64,000 nucleotides of DNA from NCBI GenBank assembly GCA_021324935.1, contig JAJPIE010000042.1:1-64000 (forward strand), in the 5' to 3' direction. A program made the translations under genes and the position numbers. Shown here in pieces: positions 26,603-35,022 of the stretch. Each line of letters starts with the position of its first letter. The stretch's first letter is position 1. The notes beneath the pieces are model-generated. The model was not told the DNA's origin, did no database searches, and saw only the letters and a program-made list of their open reading frames with translations. Source of the stretch: Acidobacteriota bacterium. GTDB lineage: Bacteria; Acidobacteriota; Terriglobia; Acidiferrales; UBA7541.

Positions 26603-27448
26603 TTACTGGAGCAGTTTCAGGATGCTCTGCTGCGCCGAGTTCGCCTGGGCCAGGGCCGAGATGCCGGACTGGTTCAGGATCGAGAATTCGGAGAGATTGG
26701 TCACCTGCTGCGGGATGTTCGCCGCAGTGATCTGGTCCTGGGCCGCTGTCAGGTTCTGCACCTGCGAATTGATAACGTTCACAGCGGATTGCAGGCGGTT
26801 GATGCCGGCGCCGATCGTGCCGCGCAATCCGGCCACGTTGGAGATGGCCGTGTTGATGTCAGAAAGAGCGGCGGTGGCATTGGAGCTGGTCGTCAGGTCA
26901 TCGCTGGCGAAGCTGACTGTCGAGCCGTTGTAAGCGATGCTGCTGGAGGAGAGTGTGCCCACCGTGACGGAGATCGTGTTGTTGGCGGCCGTGGAGCTGG
27001 CGTCGGTCAGGAAGATGTTCGTGGCATTGGCGGTGAACACCGAAGTGCCGTTGAACGTGGTGCTGCTGCCGATGCGGTCGATTTCCGCCTTGATCTGGCT
27101 GAACTCCGCGTTCAGCGCCGTGCGCTGGGAATCGCTGACCGTGCCGTTCGCCGACTCCGTAGCCAGCGTAACGGCGCGATTGAGAAGCGTGGTCACTTGG
27201 GCGAGCGCGCCATCGGAAACCTGCAGCGCGCCAACGCCGTCCTGCGCATTGGCCGCGGACTGGGTCAACGCGGTCACGTTCGCCTGCAATCCGTTCGCGA
27301 TTGCCAAGCCCGCTGCGTCGTCCGCGCCCGAATTGATGCGGGAACCCGAGGAAAGCTGGAACAGCGTGTTCTGCAGCTTGCTCTGGGTGACCTGCAACTG
27401 ATTCTGCGCTTCCAACGAAGCGATGTTGTTCAGTAGACTGATTGCCAT
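26603..27448 (-). CDS. fliC: Flagellin
   Basis: 281 residues, a short flagellin made mainly of the D0/D1 regions. The N-terminus has the conserved block L-S-S-G-S-R-I-N-S-G-A-D-D-A-A-G-L-A-I-A (residues 33-52), and the C-terminus ends with the expected SQVQNLTAAQ ... ALAQANSAQQSILKLLQ helix. The central part (about 135-200) is small and rich in Ser/Thr/Asn, giving many possible O-glycosylation positions. The gene has its own sigma-28 promoter, a 120-nt leader with a structured ribosome binding site, and lies just downstream of glycosyltransferase and heptose genes. Confidence 0.95.
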   Translation of the reverse strand: MAISLLNNIASLEAQNQLQVTQSKLQNTLFQLSSGSRINSGADDAAGLAIANGLQANVTALTQSAANAQDGVGALQVSDGALAQVTTLLNRAVTLATESANGTVSDSQRTALNAEFSQIKAEIDRIGSSTTFNGTSVFTANATNIFLTDASSTAANNTISVTVGTLSSSSIAYNGSTVSFASDDLTTSSNATAALSDINTAISNVAGLRGTIGAGINRLQSAVNVINSQVQNLTAAQDQITAANIPQQVTNLSEFSILNQSGISALAQANSAQQSILKLLQ

Positions 27449-27450
27449 GG

Positions 27451-27498
27451 TAAGGCTCCTTTCGTTGCTTGTTATTCCGCTTGGCGTCCGAGGAGCCT
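27451..27498 (-). promoter_or_regulatory. fliC leader hairpin sequestering the ribosome binding site
   Basis: In the mRNA, AAGGCTCCT (27498-27490) is perfectly complementary to AGGAGCCTT (27459-27451), a 9-bp stem that contains the fliC GGAG site 7 nt before the ATG. The 30-nt loop carries two GGA triplets (CGGAC, CGGAA) and the ribosome binding site contains a third, as in CsrA-controlled leaders. Translational control is inferred. Confidence 0.6.
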
Positions 27499-27574
27499 TG
27501 GTGCGCGGGGCTTGAACCCATCAGGCCCAGGTGGCTCGCACGTCGCTACGGATCAGCCAACGTACTCACCCTGT

Positions 27575-27601
27575 ATATCGGCTCGGGAACGAAAGGCTTT
27601 A
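27575..27601 (-). promoter_or_regulatory. Sigma-28 (FliA) promoter of fliC
   Basis: TAAA, a 15-bp spacer and GCCGATAT on the minus strand, a near-perfect match to TAAA-N15-GCCGATAA. Transcription would start near 27568. Confidence 0.85.
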
Positions 27602-27612
27602 CCTCCTGTAAG

Positions 27613-28965
27613 TCATTTGAACTGCGGAACTTGCTCCTTTGAAGCCCCCGCGGCCTGGCACACCTCTTGCATCGCCCGGGTTAATTCCGCCCTGCCTGGA
27701 TAGGCTCGCAGCCCCTGTTCGAGTGCCCGGACCGCGCGCGGCCAGTTGCGTAGCTGTGCCCACAAACTGGCGCAGCGTATGTAGTCCGCGGGATACAAAC
27801 CCGGAATCGATCGCAGTTTCTCGTCGGCGGCTTGTGCCGCTTGCTCTATGCGGTTAAGGAAGACCAGCGCGAGTATCAGGCCTTCGTGCAGCTCGGCAAT
27901 CTGCGGAGTGGCGGCGAGCGCGGCTTGCAAGCGGGAAAGGCCCTTTTCGGTTTTGCCGGCACGAACCGTGGCCAGGCATAGTTTGGCAAGCAGCGCCGGA
28001 CTCCCGTCCTGGCGTTTCCATGCTGCTTCGTAGCTGGTGCGCGCTTGCTCAAAGTCGCCAAGATTGTAGTGCGCGTCGCCGCGCGTTTCGGCGACCAGCG
28101 CCGTGCGGTGCCCCGCGTGCTCTGCCTGGCGCAGAAAATTCAGCGCGTCTTCGAAATAGCCCATGCGGAAGATGCTTAGCCCGAGGAAAAACCACGCCAC
28201 TCCGGCGGACGGATTCAAGTCGCAGGCGCGGGAGAACAGCGTACGAGCCTCGGGAAGATTCTTGTATTGCTCCAGTTCCAGCAGCCCGAGCTCGAAAAAC
28301 GCCTGCCAGTCCTTTGGAAATTCCTGGATTTTTTGCCGGCCCATTTCCCTATACATGTGGTTCTTGCGCGCCTTGGTGGTTTCGTCGACCGCGAGGCCGA
28401 AATGGTGAATGACGAAATTGGCCTGGCTAAGTACTCCGCCGATGGCCTCGATGCGCGGACCGACGCTTTCATGCACGCGGCCCACGAAATAGACCTCCGG
28501 GCTGCGGCGGAAGAGTCGCACATTCTGATGCTCCACGAAGGCAGGGTAAGCCGAGGCCGAGGGCAGCAGACAATCGTTGAGCTTCGGCGCCTGGTCCCAG
28601 ATCCGCTCATTCGGGCTGTTCACATAGTTCCGAATGACCACCTGGTAGCCTGCGCTGTTTTTGTTTCCGAGCATGGCGGGAAGGGCGCCTGCCGCCGTAG
28701 CGTCGAGTTGCTCGTCGGCGTCAAGCGAAAGAATCCATTCGCCATGGGCTTCGGCGAGAGCGCAATTGCGCGCTTCGGCGAAATCGTTTTTCCAGGGGAT
28801 ATGAATCACGCGCGCTCCAAACTCCTCGGCGATGGCGACGGTGCCGTCGACCGAGCCGGTGTCCGCGATGACGATTTCCGCGGCAAGCGGTTTCACGCTC
28901 GCGAGGCACGCCGGAAGATGCGCTTGCGCGTCGCGAACTATCATGGAGACGGTCAGGGTGGTCAT
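27613..28965 (-). CDS. Family 2 glycosyltransferase with TPR repeats
   Basis: 450 residues. The N-terminal GT-A domain (about 1-215) begins LTVSMIVRDAQ, has the nucleotide-binding ADTGSVDGT and the metal-binding DAD motif in SLDADEQL (about residues 80-87). The C-terminal half (about 220-440) is TPR repeats, as in bacterial O-linked transferases that modify proteins. No signal peptide, so cytoplasmic. Its start overlaps the stop of the larger upstream glycosyltransferase gene by 4 bp (ATGA), and fliC begins 165 bp further on. Flagellin glycosylation is the natural inference; the sugar and target are not proven. Confidence 0.85.
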   Translation of the reverse strand: MTTLTVSMIVRDAQAHLPACLASVKPLAAEIVIADTGSVDGTVAIAEEFGARVIHIPWKNDFAEARNCALAEAHGEWILSLDADEQLDATAAGALPAMLGNKNSAGYQVVIRNYVNSPNERIWDQAPKLNDCLLPSASAYPAFVEHQNVRLFRRSPEVYFVGRVHESVGPRIEAIGGVLSQANFVIHHFGLAVDETTKARKNHMYREMGRQKIQEFPKDWQAFFELGLLELEQYKNLPEARTLFSRACDLNPSAGVAWFFLGLSIFRMGYFEDALNFLRQAEHAGHRTALVAETRGDAHYNLGDFEQARTSYEAAWKRQDGSPALLAKLCLATVRAGKTEKGLSRLQAALAATPQIAELHEGLILALVFLNRIEQAAQAADEKLRSIPGLYPADYIRCASLWAQLRNWPRAVRALEQGLRAYPGRAELTRAMQEVCQAAGASKEQVPQFK

Positions 28966-31900
28966 GGAGTGGCTGTTCCCATCGCGGCGGCCTGGGCCGC
29001 GCCGGCCTCGAGAAAGCTTTGGAACAGAGTGGTCCAGTAGACGATTGGGACCAGTTGCGCAATCTGATCGAACAGTTTGCGAAGCTGCGCGTCGGTGAGC
29101 AACTTTTGTCGCGCCAGCTCGAACAGGTCGATTTGATCTAGCGCGCGCAGGCCGGCGAGTGCGGTCTCCACTGCGGGACGCTTATCCGCCACTTCGCGCT
29201 CCATCCGCCCGTAGTCTTCCGGAGCAAGCTTGCCGAAAGGCGTCTTGCCGCTTTGCACCAGGTCCGGATGCTTCTCGAATAGCGCAACGTGCACCCGGCC
29301 GTAGGTGCGCGCACGCCGCACCAGATCGTCGGCGGTAATCTGCGGGTGCTGGTGCCAGGCGTGCGCCAAAGGGTGATATTTCACGCGGCATCCGCTGTCC
29401 GCAAGGCGCAGACCGAGGTCCGTGTCTTCTCCCACCCGGAAGGTGGCGTCGAACGATCCAGCTTCCAGGACGGCCTGGCGCAGCACACTGAGATTGCAGG
29501 TGACAAAAAAAGACGCGTCGCACAATTGGCCGGCACGCAGTGCATTCTGCGGAAAAAGAAACGCCGAGCGCTGCAGCCACAAGGTAAGCGCGTGGCGGTT
29601 GCACTCCTCCGTTGCTGTAAACGAGCCGAGCACGGCCCATTTCTCCCGTGGGTGTTTGTGGTGCATGGCGAGATGCTCGGCCAGCAGATTGCGAGAGGCG
29701 ATCGTGTCGTCGTTGATCAAAAGCAGGTATTTCCCGCGAGCGGCTTCGACGCCGGCGCGGCGCGCGGCCCCCGCTCCGGCGTTGGCCTGGCGAAGATAGC
29801 GGAGTTCGCCAAAAGGAAAGGGCCGCGTGCGGCAGAATTCTTCGGTGCCGTCCGTGGAACCGTCGTCGATGACGATAACTTCGTAACTGGACGAAGGCAC
29901 GGTTTGAAAGGAAAGCGCCATCAGGCAAAGCTGCAGCGTGGCTTTCCGGTTAAAGGTGGGAACGATGACGGAGATTTGCGGCGCACTCTCCGGCGCCTGC
30001 CGCCGTGATTTGCCGCCGGGCACCGGATCTTTTTTGATGGCCTGCCCGCATCGGTTCGCCAGGCGCTTTGCCTGCGCGCAACACACCGATGCGTGTTCCG
30101 CATTTCCGAGTTTCGTGTAGCACTCCGCCATCTCTTCGAGCAGGCGTGTATAGATGGTGCACGCGGGAATTTCGCCGCGGAGGGTCATGAAAATGTGGCG
30201 AAACTGTTCGAGCGCCTCGGCGTGTCTGCCTTGCAGCAAACGGCGGTGGCCGAGCTGCCAATAACCGAATGTGCGCAGATCTGGGCGAAACCTCGCCGGC
30301 CGCTGGGTGAGGACTTCGGGGACGTAGTCTTCAACTTCGCGGTAAGACCACACATGTGCGGGATCGAACGGCTTGCGCCGCAGCGTTTTGCCGACCTTCA
30401 GAATGTGGCGCAGCTGATTGCGCAGATTTTCGACGTTGAACGTTTGCTCGATGTAGGCGCGGCCCTGATCGGCGAGCTTGCTCCAGAGGGTTTCGTCCCG
30501 GTAGAGTCGCAGGATAGCGTCGGCAAACTCGCGGGGCGTGTCCGCGATGAGCGCGTGCTGTTCGTTGACAAGCTGCAATCCCTCGGCCCCGATGGTGGTG
30601 GTAACAAGCGGAATCCCGTGGGCGAGCGAGATCATGTTTTTGGTTATTAAGCCCGTGCCAAATCGCATGGGGCCGACGAAGACCCGGCGCTCCGCAAACG
30701 CAGCGCCTAGATCGTCGATTTTCCCAAGCAGTCTGATGTTTTTCGCCGGCGGGCAAAGCTCGGGCGTCAGCCCGAATCCGGCGATATAGAACTGCAAATT
30801 CGCGTCCTGCTTCGAAACCAGCGGCAGCACTTTTTGCACCAGCCAGTCGAGCGCGTCCCGATTGGCAAGATTTTCGAAGTTGCCAAGAAAGAGCACGCCT
30901 TCACGCTCCCCAAATCCCGGTCCCTTCTTGCCGGCTTCGGCGATGGTGGAAAGATGTTCGGCGCGAAGCTCCGGCAGCAGGGAACGGTAGTGCTGGTGGT
31001 CGGCCTCGCTGACATAAAGAACCAGGTCGGCACGCTGATAAACCTCAATCTCTCGCTGCTCCAGCTCTTCGCCGCGCTCGAGATCGGAGAGCAGGCCGCT
31101 CAACGGGTAGGACCGGCGCTCGCGTTCGCCGTGCCGGTCTTCACTCAGGACTATCACGCACGTTCCCGGAGACCACTGGCGGATTTCGTCCAGATAATGC
31201 TCGGACACGGGAATCGCGTTCCAATACCAGTGGCAGAGAATCGCGGCGTCGAACTTTTCCTTTTCCAGAAGTTCGCGAAAACTCCATGTTGTAGCCGCGT
31301 CCTCTCCCAGATGGCGAAGGCGGCCGGGATCGCCGGCGATGACCCGCACGCCGAGCGTTTCCAGCGGCGGCGCGTATTTTCCCGCGTTGCGGTCCCAGCG
31401 AGCGAGGAAGGTGACTTCGTGGCCGAGATGACGCAGTTCGCGGGCCAGCTCGAAAATCCGCAGGTCCGCGCCGCTGCAATCGTGATGCGGCAGTATTTCG
31501 TGGACCAGGAGGAGTTTCTGCGCCGCGGACGCCGCAGCCTCCGCGGCTGGGCAGTCAGTGTGTGGTCCCTGTTGGCTGCGACGCCTGTTTTGAATGCCAT
31601 TCCTGGCATAAAAGCGGCCTGGATAGCGGTCGCGCACTCCATCCGCCTTGCGCGCCAGCAGAAAGATTGAATCGCCGCGAAGCGCAAGTGGAAAGCCGAG
31701 CTGCGCGAGATGGAGAAGTGTTTCGTGTTTCGCCGGCCAATAAAAGTCCTGTGTGCGCAGCGATTCGACCGCGAACCCTGCTGCTTGCGTCAGCGATGCG
31801 ACCTCTTCGGCGGTGTATTCCCGATTGTGGCGGTCCGTCGTTCGGCCCCCCACTTCGAACTGGCCGTAGCAATATGGGCTTGCCGCTCGCAGTGTTTGTT

Positions 31901-32753
31901 CCACCGCATGGGCGCTGCCGAGATTCGGCGTGGTCAGAAATAACAGTCCGCCAGGTTTCAAGACGCGATTGATTTCGGACAAGACGCCCATTGGATCGAG
32001 CGCGAGATGCTCGAGGATTTCGCAACACAGCACCGCGTCAAAGCCGGCGTCAACATAAGGCCACGGCGCCTTCTCCAGGTCGAAATTATCCACCCGCACT
32101 TCGTCGCGAAAACTGCCATCCCTCGAAGCGAGAACGCGCGTGCACCATGGCTCGCCTTCCCAGATGTCCGTACACCGAACTTCGGAATACCCCTTCCAAT
32201 GGAGCAGCCCAGCCGTGCAATGGTGAAACGCCGCCCCCAATTCAAGTATGTTCTGGCCGGGCCGCGCCCCGGGCAGGGCCTGCAGCGTGGCAACGTAGCG
32301 GCGAATGTGGGTCTCGAAGTAGGAGCGCTCGTTTTCATCGTCGGAAACGTACTGCCGTAAGAATGATTCCAGCGCCGGAACGTCGTTTAGCCCTCCGCCT
32401 GGCTGGCCGCCTGCAAGTATTTTCGATTTTGCCGCGGCTTGCTGCTCGGGCGTCATCGCGGGTAAGCCGTGCTCCAGGAATGGAAGTGCCTCGGTATCTC
32501 GTCCTTGTGCCAGCAGCAGTGCACCCAGGTTTGCCGCGGCCTGCGCTGCCTTTGGATCTTTCTGCAGCGCAACACGATAGCCGGCTTCCGCTTCACCCGC
32601 TTCTCCACGCCGGTATTGGATCGTTGCCCAATCACACCATAATTCTCCGGTGTCGGCATCGCTCAAGGCCGTGCGCAGCAGGACTAACGCCTCGTCAAAT
32701 CTGCCCGCTTCGTATAGGCGCAGCGCGATGCCGTGCGCTTCGGCGGCGTTCAA
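28962..32753 (-). CDS. Multidomain glycan enzyme: TPR + SAM methyltransferase + GT4 + GT2
   Basis: About 1263 residues. In order: TPR repeats (about 1-100); a class I methyltransferase (about 150-365) with NILELGAAFH as the SAM-binding loop and LCCEILEHL; a GT-B glycosyltransferase group 1 domain (about 415-815) with VLFLGNFENLANRDAL and PMRFGTGLITKNMISLAHGIP; a helical/TPR spacer; and a GT-A family 2 domain (about 920-1150) with ISVIVPTFNRKATL and VIDDGSTDGTEEF. The TTG start at 32753 has GGAGGT 5 nt upstream; earlier in-frame starts would overlap gmhA by 120 bp. It probably assembles a methylated, multi-sugar glycan together with the adjacent GT2-TPR enzyme. Confidence 0.82.
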   Translation of the reverse strand: MNAAEAHGIALRLYEAGRFDEALVLLRTALSDADTGELWCDWATIQYRRGEAGEAEAGYRVALQKDPKAAQAAANLGALLLAQGRDTEALPFLEHGLPAMTPEQQAAAKSKILAGGQPGGGLNDVPALESFLRQYVSDDENERSYFETHIRRYVATLQALPGARPGQNILELGAAFHHCTAGLLHWKGYSEVRCTDIWEGEPWCTRVLASRDGSFRDEVRVDNFDLEKAPWPYVDAGFDAVLCCEILEHLALDPMGVLSEINRVLKPGGLLFLTTPNLGSAHAVEQTLRAASPYCYGQFEVGGRTTDRHNREYTAEEVASLTQAAGFAVESLRTQDFYWPAKHETLLHLAQLGFPLALRGDSIFLLARKADGVRDRYPGRFYARNGIQNRRRSQQGPHTDCPAAEAAASAAQKLLLVHEILPHHDCSGADLRIFELARELRHLGHEVTFLARWDRNAGKYAPPLETLGVRVIAGDPGRLRHLGEDAATTWSFRELLEKEKFDAAILCHWYWNAIPVSEHYLDEIRQWSPGTCVIVLSEDRHGERERRSYPLSGLLSDLERGEELEQREIEVYQRADLVLYVSEADHQHYRSLLPELRAEHLSTIAEAGKKGPGFGEREGVLFLGNFENLANRDALDWLVQKVLPLVSKQDANLQFYIAGFGLTPELCPPAKNIRLLGKIDDLGAAFAERRVFVGPMRFGTGLITKNMISLAHGIPLVTTTIGAEGLQLVNEQHALIADTPREFADAILRLYRDETLWSKLADQGRAYIEQTFNVENLRNQLRHILKVGKTLRRKPFDPAHVWSYREVEDYVPEVLTQRPARFRPDLRTFGYWQLGHRRLLQGRHAEALEQFRHIFMTLRGEIPACTIYTRLLEEMAECYTKLGNAEHASVCCAQAKRLANRCGQAIKKDPVPGGKSRRQAPESAPQISVIVPTFNRKATLQLCLMALSFQTVPSSSYEVIVIDDGSTDGTEEFCRTRPFPFGELRYLRQANAGAGAARRAGVEAARGKYLLLINDDTIASRNLLAEHLAMHHKHPREKWAVLGSFTATEECNRHALTLWLQRSAFLFPQNALRAGQLCDASFFVTCNLSVLRQAVLEAGSFDATFRVGEDTDLGLRLADSGCRVKYHPLAHAWHQHPQITADDLVRRARTYGRVHVALFEKHPDLVQSGKTPFGKLAPEDYGRMEREVADKRPAVETALAGLRALDQIDLFELARQKLLTDAQLRKLFDQIAQLVPIVYWTTLFQSFLEAGAAQAAAMGTATP

Positions 32754-32793
32754 TCGGCACCTCCGTGGTTTCGCATTTTGCCCATGCTTGCCT

Positions 32794-33405
32794 TCACCTT
32801 TCGCGTCCTTCGGCGATCTCGGTTTCCACCAACTCGGCGAGGGCATGCAGCAAAAAGGCGTGCGCTTCTTGAACGCGCGGCGTCTCGTTGGAAGGCGCGC
32901 GCAGGCAGAGGTCAACGCATTTCTGAAGTCTCCCGCCGTCCGCGCCGGTCAGGCCGATGGTCTTCACGCGGAGAGCCGCGGCGAGCAATGCGGCTCGCAA
33001 TATGTTTTGCGAATTCCCGCTCGTGGAGATGCAAAACAGAACGTCGCCGGGTTGTGCGAAGGCCTCCACCTGGCGGGTGAAGATGTCCTCGAATCCGTAG
33101 TCGTTGCCGATTGCGGTGAGTGAGGACGTGTTTGCGCTGAGCGCCAACGCCGGCAGCGCGCGCCGCTCGATGCGATATCGGCCCACCAACTCTGCGGCCA
33201 GGTGCTGCGCGTCCGCCGCGCTTCCCCCATTGCCGATGATCAGCAGCCGGTTCCCGCGTTGCAGCGCCTCGCGTATCAGTCTCGCGGCGCGTGAGATTCC
33301 CGCTATTAGGCCGCCATCCGCGCGCATGCTTTCGTGGACCTGGATATTCGCGGCGAGAATTTCCTGCACCAGAGTTTCACCGGTGACCATTGCGAGTGTA
33401 GCCAT
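32794..33405 (-). CDS. gmhA: Sedoheptulose-7-phosphate isomerase (phosphoheptose isomerase)
   Basis: 203 residues, a single SIS domain of GmhA type. Diagnostic stretches are IGNGGSAADAQHLAAELVGRY (residues ~55-75) and FCISTSGNSQNI, followed by the helical C-terminus with ETPRVQEAHAFLLHALAELVE, where the His and Glu/Gln needed for isomerisation lie. The enzyme converts sedoheptulose-7-P into D-glycero-D-manno-heptose-7-P in the cytoplasm. GGAGG lies 4 nt before ATG 33405, and the gene overlaps the upstream kinase by 29 bp. Together they form the first two steps of ADP- or GDP-heptose synthesis; the phosphatase and nucleotidyltransferase genes are not in this window. Confidence 0.9.
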   Translation of the reverse strand: MATLAMVTGETLVQEILAANIQVHESMRADGGLIAGISRAARLIREALQRGNRLLIIGNGGSAADAQHLAAELVGRYRIERRALPALALSANTSSLTAIGNDYGFEDIFTRQVEAFAQPGDVLFCISTSGNSQNILRAALLAAALRVKTIGLTGADGGRLQKCVDLCLRAPSNETPRVQEAHAFLLHALAELVETEIAEGRER

Positions 33406-34429
33406 TGCGCCTCCAGGTCTGTAAACCATGAAATTCGAAACTGAATTCGGTCGGGGTGCCCCCAAGCTTCCGGATCGCTTCGGCGACTTTGTGCTTCTTC
33501 TCGTATTCGCAGTAGAGCAACAGATATCCACCGCCCCCGGCGCCGGTGATTTTCCCGCCCAGCGCCCCGCTCCGCCGGGCCGCTTCGTACATTTCGTCGA
33601 TGTGGGGATTGCTGATTTTCGGCGACATCTGTTTCTTGAAGCGCCAGGCTTCGTCGAGCTTTGCGCCAAAATCCTCCAACCGGCGTTGCAGCAGAAGATT
33701 TTTCATCTCCACGGCGAGCGCCTTCTGGTGCCGCAGTCCTTCCAGGGCCTTTTCCTCGTGGTGCTGATAACGCTCCACCTGGTCCTCGATGATGCCGTCA
33801 TTGGCGCGCGGCTTGCCCGTGTAGCACAGCAGCAGGTTGTGCTCCAGTTCGTTGGACGTGTCCCGGTGAATTCGCAGCGGATTCACGATCACGTGATCGG
33901 CGTTGAACTCGATGAAGTTGAAGCCTCCGAACGCGGCCGCGTATTGATCCTGCATGCCGCCTTGGATCTGCAGCTCTTTCCGCTCGATCTGGTACGCCAG
34001 TTCAGCGGTTTCATAGTCCGTCAGCGGAAGGCCCTTAAACTCGCGCAGCAGCCCGATGAGATTCACCATCAGGCTGGAAGAGGATCCCAGGCCTGAGCCC
34101 GGCGGGGCGTCGGTCTGCAAAAAAAGGTCGAAGCCTTTCCCTTGCGGGTCGCCCACCTTGCGGATGGCCGCTTTCGCCAGGTCCAGCTTCCCGTCATAAA
34201 CCAGGTTGGAGCGGGTGTCGAAATAGAAAAGCGCCCCGAGATCGGCGGATTCGATGTGGATTTGGTCGTCGACTCGCGGCGTTAACGTCCCCCAGGAATA
34301 GCGCGTAATGGTTGCGCTCAACACGCAGCCGCCTTCACGTTCCAGATACGGCGCAACGTCCGTGCCGCCGCCCGCAAAACTCAGGCGAAGCGGCGCTTTG
34401 GCGCGGATGTGGAGGTTTGAATGCATCAT
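33377..34429 (-). CDS. hddA: D-glycero-alpha-D-manno-heptose-7-phosphate kinase (GHMP family)
   Basis: 350 residues. N-terminal RAKAPLRLSFAGGGTDVAPY is the HddA-type GHMP motif 1, PPGSGLGSSSSL is the ATP-binding motif 2, and GGKITGAGGGGYLLLY is motif 3 near the C-terminus. It phosphorylates the GmhA product at C1 for the GDP-heptose pathway used for S-layer, capsule or other surface glycans. Start ATG 34429 is chosen because the family motif begins a few residues later; ATGs at 34426 and 34477 are alternatives with no better ribosome binding site. It is the first gene of the minus-strand hddA-gmhA-glycosyltransferase series ending at fliC. Confidence 0.87.
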   Translation of the reverse strand: MMHSNLHIRAKAPLRLSFAGGGTDVAPYLEREGGCVLSATITRYSWGTLTPRVDDQIHIESADLGALFYFDTRSNLVYDGKLDLAKAAIRKVGDPQGKGFDLFLQTDAPPGSGLGSSSSLMVNLIGLLREFKGLPLTDYETAELAYQIERKELQIQGGMQDQYAAAFGGFNFIEFNADHVIVNPLRIHRDTSNELEHNLLLCYTGKPRANDGIIEDQVERYQHHEEKALEGLRHQKALAVEMKNLLLQRRLEDFGAKLDEAWRFKKQMSPKISNPHIDEMYEAARRSGALGGKITGAGGGGYLLLYCEYEKKHKVAEAIRKLGGTPTEFSFEFHGLQTWRRNGYTRNGHR

Positions 34430-34758
34430 TGACGTTTCAGATTGGCTCAAATCCGCTTCCGTCGGCGGGCATGCCATCTCGTGCCAGTTCGGAACTCGCT
34501 TCCCCCGCTGTTTTCATTTCAGGACTGATTTCGCGCGAGTCTTTCTTCTGTCATTCCCGTGAAAGAGCTTCCCCCCTGCAAAACGCGAACCCGGACCTTT
34601 TTCAGCCCCTCAATTCGATTCTGCAAGATTGCCTCCAAAAGGAAATTCTAAGAGTCCATTTGGCCTGTCCTTCTTTCCCATAATCCTTCACGTGGCGCCG
34701 CCGATAACTACTTGTGGAGAGGCGCAGGCCACGCGGCCCCGCCGACCCGGGATTGGCG
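34430..34758. promoter_or_regulatory. Divergent intergenic region hddA / flbD
   Basis: No gene is supported here. The right part contains the sigma-28 promoter of the flbD-motA-motB operon (34681-34707). No convincing promoter could be recognised for hddA on the minus strand. Confidence 0.5.
34681..34707 (+). promoter_or_regulatory. Sigma-28 (FliA) promoter of flbD-motA-motB
   Basis: TAAT, a 15-bp spacer and a perfect GCCGATAA. Transcription would start near 34715, 45 nt before the flbD ATG. Confidence 0.75.
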
Positions 34759-35022
34759 ATGATTAGACTCACCAGGCTCAACAACCAAACGCTGGTCGTG
34801 AATTGTGACCTGATCAAGTCCGTGGAGAACGCGCCGGATACGGTGCTGACATTAGTGACCGGCGAAAAGATTATCGTCCGGGAAACGACGGAACAGATTC
34901 TCGAGCGCGTGGTGGCATTTCGCCGCGCCATTCTTGCCGGCCTGGCCCCTCTCACCAGCGATCTTCCCGGGGTAACCACTCCGGAGCCTCGGCGTGTGCC
35001 GAACCAGGGAGAAGATTCCTGA
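34759..35022 (+). CDS. flbD: FlbD-family flagellar protein
   Basis: 87 residues. The N-terminal two thirds match the small FlbD family (M-I-x-L-T-R-L-N-N ... V-N-C-D-L-I ... E-x-x-P-D-T-x-L-x-L-x-x-G-x-K-x-x-V-x-E), which is regularly found just upstream of motA. Its molecular role is poorly known. The start at 34759 is fixed by the conserved MIRLTRLNN beginning; the ribosome binding site is weak. The C-terminal 20 residues are a Pro-rich tail. It ends 6 bp before motA. Confidence 0.85.
   Translation: MIRLTRLNNQTLVVNCDLIKSVENAPDTVLTLVTGEKIIVRETTEQILERVVAFRRAILAGLAPLTSDLPGVTTPEPRRVPNQGEDS

Follow-up and report, generated by a model that had tools for sequence, protein, structure and literature searches.

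A genus-specific structured leader RNA, possibly a translation switch, upstream of the flagellin gene of an acidobacterium in which CsrA and FliW were not detected

The window analysed here, a stretch of 64,000 nucleotides of Acidobacteriota DNA, contains a flagellin gene, fliC, that is preceded by a sigma-28-type promoter and a conserved leader. The conserved sequence was found only upstream of fliC, and profile searches detected none of CsrA, FliW or FlbT in the genome. The leader RNA is under strong constraint, and the conserved, folded leader probably controls the amount of flagellin. We tentatively favor a reading in which it is a genus-specific structured cis-regulatory RNA, with a closing helix (P1) and a GGCUCC strand that would form a two-state translation switch.

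The fliC gene (26603–27448, minus strand) encodes a flagellin of 281 aa with Flagellin_N and Flagellin_C domains, starting with the ATG at 27448; after it come an ORF of 116 aa that matches nothing in Pfam, fliD and fliS. The genome containing the window (G000; 4.5 Mb, 95 contigs, 91% complete) yielded a single flagellin match at an E cutoff of 1e-10. Flagellin matches were present in 11 of the 95 genomes of the order and in 3 of 36 within the genus, namely G000, G031 and G038; scanning genome contigs with the FliC protein returned distant flagellins only. An earlier note on this DNA had described a sigma-28 promoter and a leader of ~120 nt before the ATG, and both agree with the sequence. The promoter (27576–27601, minus strand) has textbook TAAAG (27601–27597) and GCCGATA (27582–27576) elements, and the spacing of 15 from TAAA to GCCGATA recurs in most leaders of the class. 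Transcription initiating near 27570, as deduced from the promoter, would give a leader spanning 27449–27570. The ribosome site, AGGAGCC, lies upstream of the ATG. Two GGA triplets fall within the loop and one within the ribosome site, as had been noted; by eye, GGA positions differ among the leaders of the three species. The adjoining region (27613–34477) carries glycosyltransferase and TPR genes and a GHMP kinase gene, with a probable sugar isomerase gene (named by eye) at 32794–33669, and is perhaps a flagellin glycosylation cluster. An FlbD-family flagellar gene is located at 34714–35022 on the opposite strand.

The leaders of G000, G031 and G038 share a core, GUGCGAGCCAC[CU]UGGG ... GGGUUCAAGCCCC(C)GCGCACCA(C)AGGCUCC, in which 39 of 43 positions (91%; aligned columns 29–77) are identical in every species pair. 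In the same species the neutral comparison, four-fold third positions of fliC, gave 47–49% identity, and the proteins are 73–77% identical. The exact core pattern occurred in 3 of the 95 genomes of the order, only upstream of fliC, and the backward control gave no hit. A model of the core (R2), which matches 27499–27569 on the minus strand (5' end GTGAGTACGTTGG), scored 84.8–96.8 bits in the three species and 25 bits at the next best locus of the order. Over 396 genomes of the phylum its only real match was to G000 (96.8 bits), and nothing else exceeded 27 bits. A wider spread of the core was rejected, as the other 28 matching genomes, at 20–27 bits, are roughly as many as chance would give at E 0.1; nine of these low-scoring loci were searched for tRNAs and none was found. 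The window-type set consists of three sequences among the genomes searched. Comparison of the window leader with Rfam families, including flg-Rhizobiales, gave no match at E up to 10.

Two other interpretations of the leader were set aside. A leader peptide was rejected, there being by eye no shared reading frame among the leaders. The stretch GGGTTCAAGCCCCGCGCACCA (27499–27525) resembles the T arm and acceptor end of a tRNA. A tRNA-like element formed by GGGTTCAAGCCCC and CGCACCA was also rejected, as ARAGORN finds no tRNA in the window. The loop and ACCA are 7–8 nt apart in this stretch; a tRNA has 12 nt between the T loop and ACCA. The likeness is taken as coincidence.

Three helices can be drawn in the leader, all on the minus strand. 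In constrained folds P1 pairs an outer 5' arm, TTGGC (27556–27560), with GCCAA (27485–27481) and an inner 5' arm, TCCG (27549–27552), with CGGA (27490–27487), its 3' arms together occupying 27481–27490. P2 pairs GTGCG (27537–27541) with CGCAC (27501–27505) and is the outer stem that the earlier note had pointed to. P3 pairs GAGCC (27533–27537) with GGCTC (27497–27493) and crosses P2. Both P2 and P3 are invariant in the three species. The 3' strand of P1 directly follows GGCUCC (one base later in the window) and its partner is the stretch before GUGCG. P1 sequence varies while complementarity is kept: UCCG/CGGA plus UUGGC/GCCAA in the window corresponds to GUUCCG/CGGAAC with an outer UUGG/CCAA in G031, and to GCGGCCG/CGGCCGC with an outer GUCG/CGAC in G038. 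When G031 is compared with G038, three of six pairs are changed on both sides; this count comes from three sequences aligned by hand, because in the genus alignment MAFFT misplaces the 3' side of P1. When the outer UUGG part was left out, shuffling gave p values for the P1 run length of 0.26 (window), 0.03 (G031) and 0.036 (G038). The consensus fold consists of P1 and GAGCC/GGCUC, and its energy was reached by 12 of 300 column shuffles; the hand alignment respects P1 and so leans towards it, and we treat this result as support rather than proof. These data, from three sequences, lend support to P1. Two members of the family, G056 and G057, are predicted to fold with a closing helix UUCCG/CGGAA enclosing GAGC(G)CC/GGGCUC, an arrangement similar to P1 and P3. 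Family-wide, 12 f1-type leaders aligned with MAFFT and RNAalifold gave no usable consensus.

The earlier note also described a perfect 9-bp pairing with the ribosome binding site. The pairing exists, with coordinates one base higher than those given: AAGGCTCCT (27499–27491) pairs with AGGAGCCTT (27460–27452), which comprises the ribosome binding site and its flank. The inner GGCTC of the upstream strand doubles as the 3' arm of P3. The proposal that upstream pairing can hide the ribosome site of this sigma-28 flagellin leader is supported. When 33 leaders of the class were analyzed identically, the smallest chance value belonged to the window leader; next, with p near 0.025, came L029 (run of 8) and L031 (run of 7), and the others were at chance. 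GGAG pairing probabilities were 0.93 in the window and 0.81 and 0.95 in the two relatives, with shuffle means of 0.60–0.65; 25, 40 and 13 of 200 shuffles, respectively, paired GGAG as strongly, such that no single species was significant. The stability of the whole leader is ordinary (z of −0.55), which rules out an exceptionally stable fold.

This pairing could be incidental. The conserved leader might instead stabilize the mRNA, provide a ribosome standby site, or bind a protein or small RNA, with GGCUCC being kept for GAGCC and GGAGC being simply the usual ribosome site of these bacteria. GGAGC does occur in 31 of 51 flagellin leaders of CsrA-less families, most of which have no long upstream complement, and it is GAGCC/GGCUC that the consensus fold uses. 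Moreover, the stem is reduced to 5 bp (p 0.62) and 6 bp (p 0.11) in the two flagellated relatives within the genus. With the length not kept and no two-sided change, the search for compensatory changes that had been suggested for this stem had a weak outcome. However, a complement of at least 9 bp arose in just 9 of 10,000 dinucleotide shuffles of the remaining leader sequence (0 of 500 in a smaller set), and the inner GGCUCC/GGAGCY part of the stem is kept in 3 of 3 species, with one G-C pair becoming G-U in G031. We consider incidental pairing possible but doubtful.

A two-state switch, which we favor, would exploit the fact that the two partners of GGCUCC, GAGCC in the core and GGAGCC in the ribosome site, are mutually exclusive. 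Predicted forced-fold energies for the ribosome-site stem and for P1 plus P2 were nearly balanced, at −42.9 and −38.3 kcal/mol in the window and −46.1 and −42.3 kcal/mol in G038. In G031 the ribosome-site stem (−31.1 kcal/mol) was weaker than P1 plus P2 (−33.8 kcal/mol), and the best free fold (−34.4) paired the ribosome site with the 5' arm of P1. In the predicted folds of all three species a broken P1 thus goes together with a covered ribosome site, via different bases. The compensatory changes lie in P1, a helix that competes with the ribosome-site stem. Covariation is silent on the switch itself, because P2, P3 and the pairing of GGCUCC with the ribosome site are either invariant or unconserved.

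In the proposed mechanism, the fliC transcript made from the sigma-28 promoter would begin with a genus-specific structured cis-regulatory leader RNA, the conserved core of which would be held by P1, with its 3' arm just past GGCUCC. In the ON state GGCUCC would pair with GAGCC, P1 would be formed and the ribosome site would be free. In the OFF state GGCUCC would pair with the GGAGCC of the ribosome site and P1 would be broken. As the covered fold is predicted to be favored in two of the three species, something should stabilize the P1/core fold, and a ligand or protein partner may do so when flagellin is wanted. We infer that the leader is a translation switch, that it works in this direction and that it has such a partner; the most economical mechanism would combine P1, the core and GGCUCC in a translational switch.

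A plain stem over the ribosome site that keeps the translation rate low, either unregulated or temperature sensitive, was in part what the earlier note had in mind. The predicted probability of the ribosome-site stem in the window (0.82) and in G038 (0.85) is in keeping with it; the value of 0.003 in G031 is not, and a plain stem leaves the conserved core and the paired changes of P1 unexplained, which makes it improbable. More improbable still is that the conserved stretch is a DNA element, such as a transcription factor site near the promoter. Strong conservation of primary sequence right downstream of the promoter would fit such a site, but the paired changes ~60 nt apart and the indels between conserved blocks suit an RNA fold better.

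CsrA bound to GGA triplets and relieved by FliW, as in Bacillus, would account for the three triplets of the leader, but this model can be put aside with near certainty. In families f1, f2 and f4 all 47 flagellated genomes lack both proteins, as does G000, whereas the same searches recovered the pair in 12 of the 14 flagellated genomes outside these families. Neither csrA (Pfam profile search) nor fliW (profile search) was found in G000, which is 91% complete. Altogether, 61 flagellated genomes were searched; the same 12 contained CsrA and FliW, and 49 contained neither. Whether flagellated or not, 36 of 151 genomes of the class have CsrA, all 36 of them in families f5, f6 and f94. That both proteins were missed in 47 genomes through incompleteness is not credible, and this bacterial group appears to have lost them. 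Because no CsrA or FliW was found, the GGA triplets are left without a known reader. FlbT was likewise not detected by profile search in 18 genomes, including G000, and the Caulobacter control was positive. In PMC4682653, Acidobacteria are named among the groups that may use FliW on CsrA; this does not hold in families f1, f2 and f4.

The ribosome sites before flagellin differ between the two sides. GGAGG was present in 12 of 13 leaders on the CsrA-bearing side versus 0 of 51 in the CsrA-less families, leaders within one family not being independent. Without L050 (from G344, whose CsrA/FliW status lies outside the searches) the former count is 11 of 12; L049, which is not among the 51, has a ribosome site without GGAGG. 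At other starts in the window GGAGG is also rare (2 of 16 GGAG sites), and a lack of it may therefore not be peculiar to flagellin. G266 and G165 (leaders L043 and L131), two genomes from outside the class, lack CsrA and FliW by profile search and keep GGAGGA before flagellin, which argues against a simple GGAGG rule. Four f32 flagellin leaders (L037, L038, L042 and L050) share a stretch like GAGCGATTCCCCTCGCCGAGGC.GCCAGAGCC and end in GGATTCAAGGAGGAATTC, an inverted repeat whose hairpin loop at the ribosome site would contain GGA, much like a CsrA site.

A second conserved flagellin leader RNA was found in f4, a neighboring CsrA-less family, in which 18 flagellin leaders (f4 leaders being the L024–L068 and L081–L110 set) share another fold with nested helices. 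In this fold, which was drawn on the very alignment used for the pairing counts, 87.7% of 375 cells pair, compared to 33–44% when the partners were slid by 1–3 columns, and 13 cells are changed on both sides versus 4.0 in shuffles. A model of this leader (R1) matched 39 of 399 genomes of the class at E up to 0.01, once each. Flagellin position was known for 24 of the loci; in 23 cases the match meets the flagellin start to within 2 nt (18 of these cases are the model's own sequences), and the remaining one (G089, 23.6 bits) lies elsewhere than at a flagellin start. An Rfam search at E up to 1 gave no match among the 15 loci searched, which took in 7 of the 18 f4 leaders (L059, L060, L063, L064, L065, L068 and L080, the G391 leader). 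L006 has one sub-threshold match to an Rfam sRNA (E 0.9), located downstream of its flagellin leader. Homology of the two leader types was rejected, as R1 does not match window-type leaders.

Flagellin is among the most abundant proteins of a motile cell. In Bacillus, CsrA and FliW couple its translation to export. The genomes considered here are well sampled, flagellated and without CsrA and FliW, yet they have two different conserved flagellin leader RNAs. Whether a leader RNA alone can do the job of CsrA and FliW has become a testable question. We hold it unlikely, but worth stating, that several families of the class lost CsrA and FliW and came to use lineage-specific, self-contained leader RNAs that match flagellin translation to demand, the window leader being the ligand- or protein-sensing switch of one genus. 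Open-licence PMC titles and abstract openings contained no report of flagellin leader RNAs or of CsrA-less flagellin control in Acidobacteria.

Among known systems, the Hag–FliW–CsrA system of Bacillus subtilis (PMC6529632) also acts at the leader, where hiding of the ribosome site controls flagellin translation. It requires CsrA and FliW, whereas the window genome has neither and hiding is predicted to occur by RNA pairing. The flagellin 5' leader is likewise the target of translational control by FlbT in Caulobacter (PMC3930126). FlbT, in contrast, was not found in the window genome or in the 17 others searched. The flg-Rhizobiales RNA (RF01736) is linked to flagellin genes. It is listed in Table 1 of PMC2864571, and is a structured, putative cis-regulatory leader confined to one bacterial group, as the window leader may be. 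The window leader differs in that no Rfam family, at E up to 10, matches it. Translational riboswitches combine a conserved core and a closing helix with a strand that can pair in either of two exclusive ways, one of them with the ribosome site. Unlike these, the window leader has no known aptamer or ligand and is found before one gene in one genus; it resembles them in its conserved core, its closing helix P1 and its GGCUCC strand, which is predicted to have two exclusive partners.
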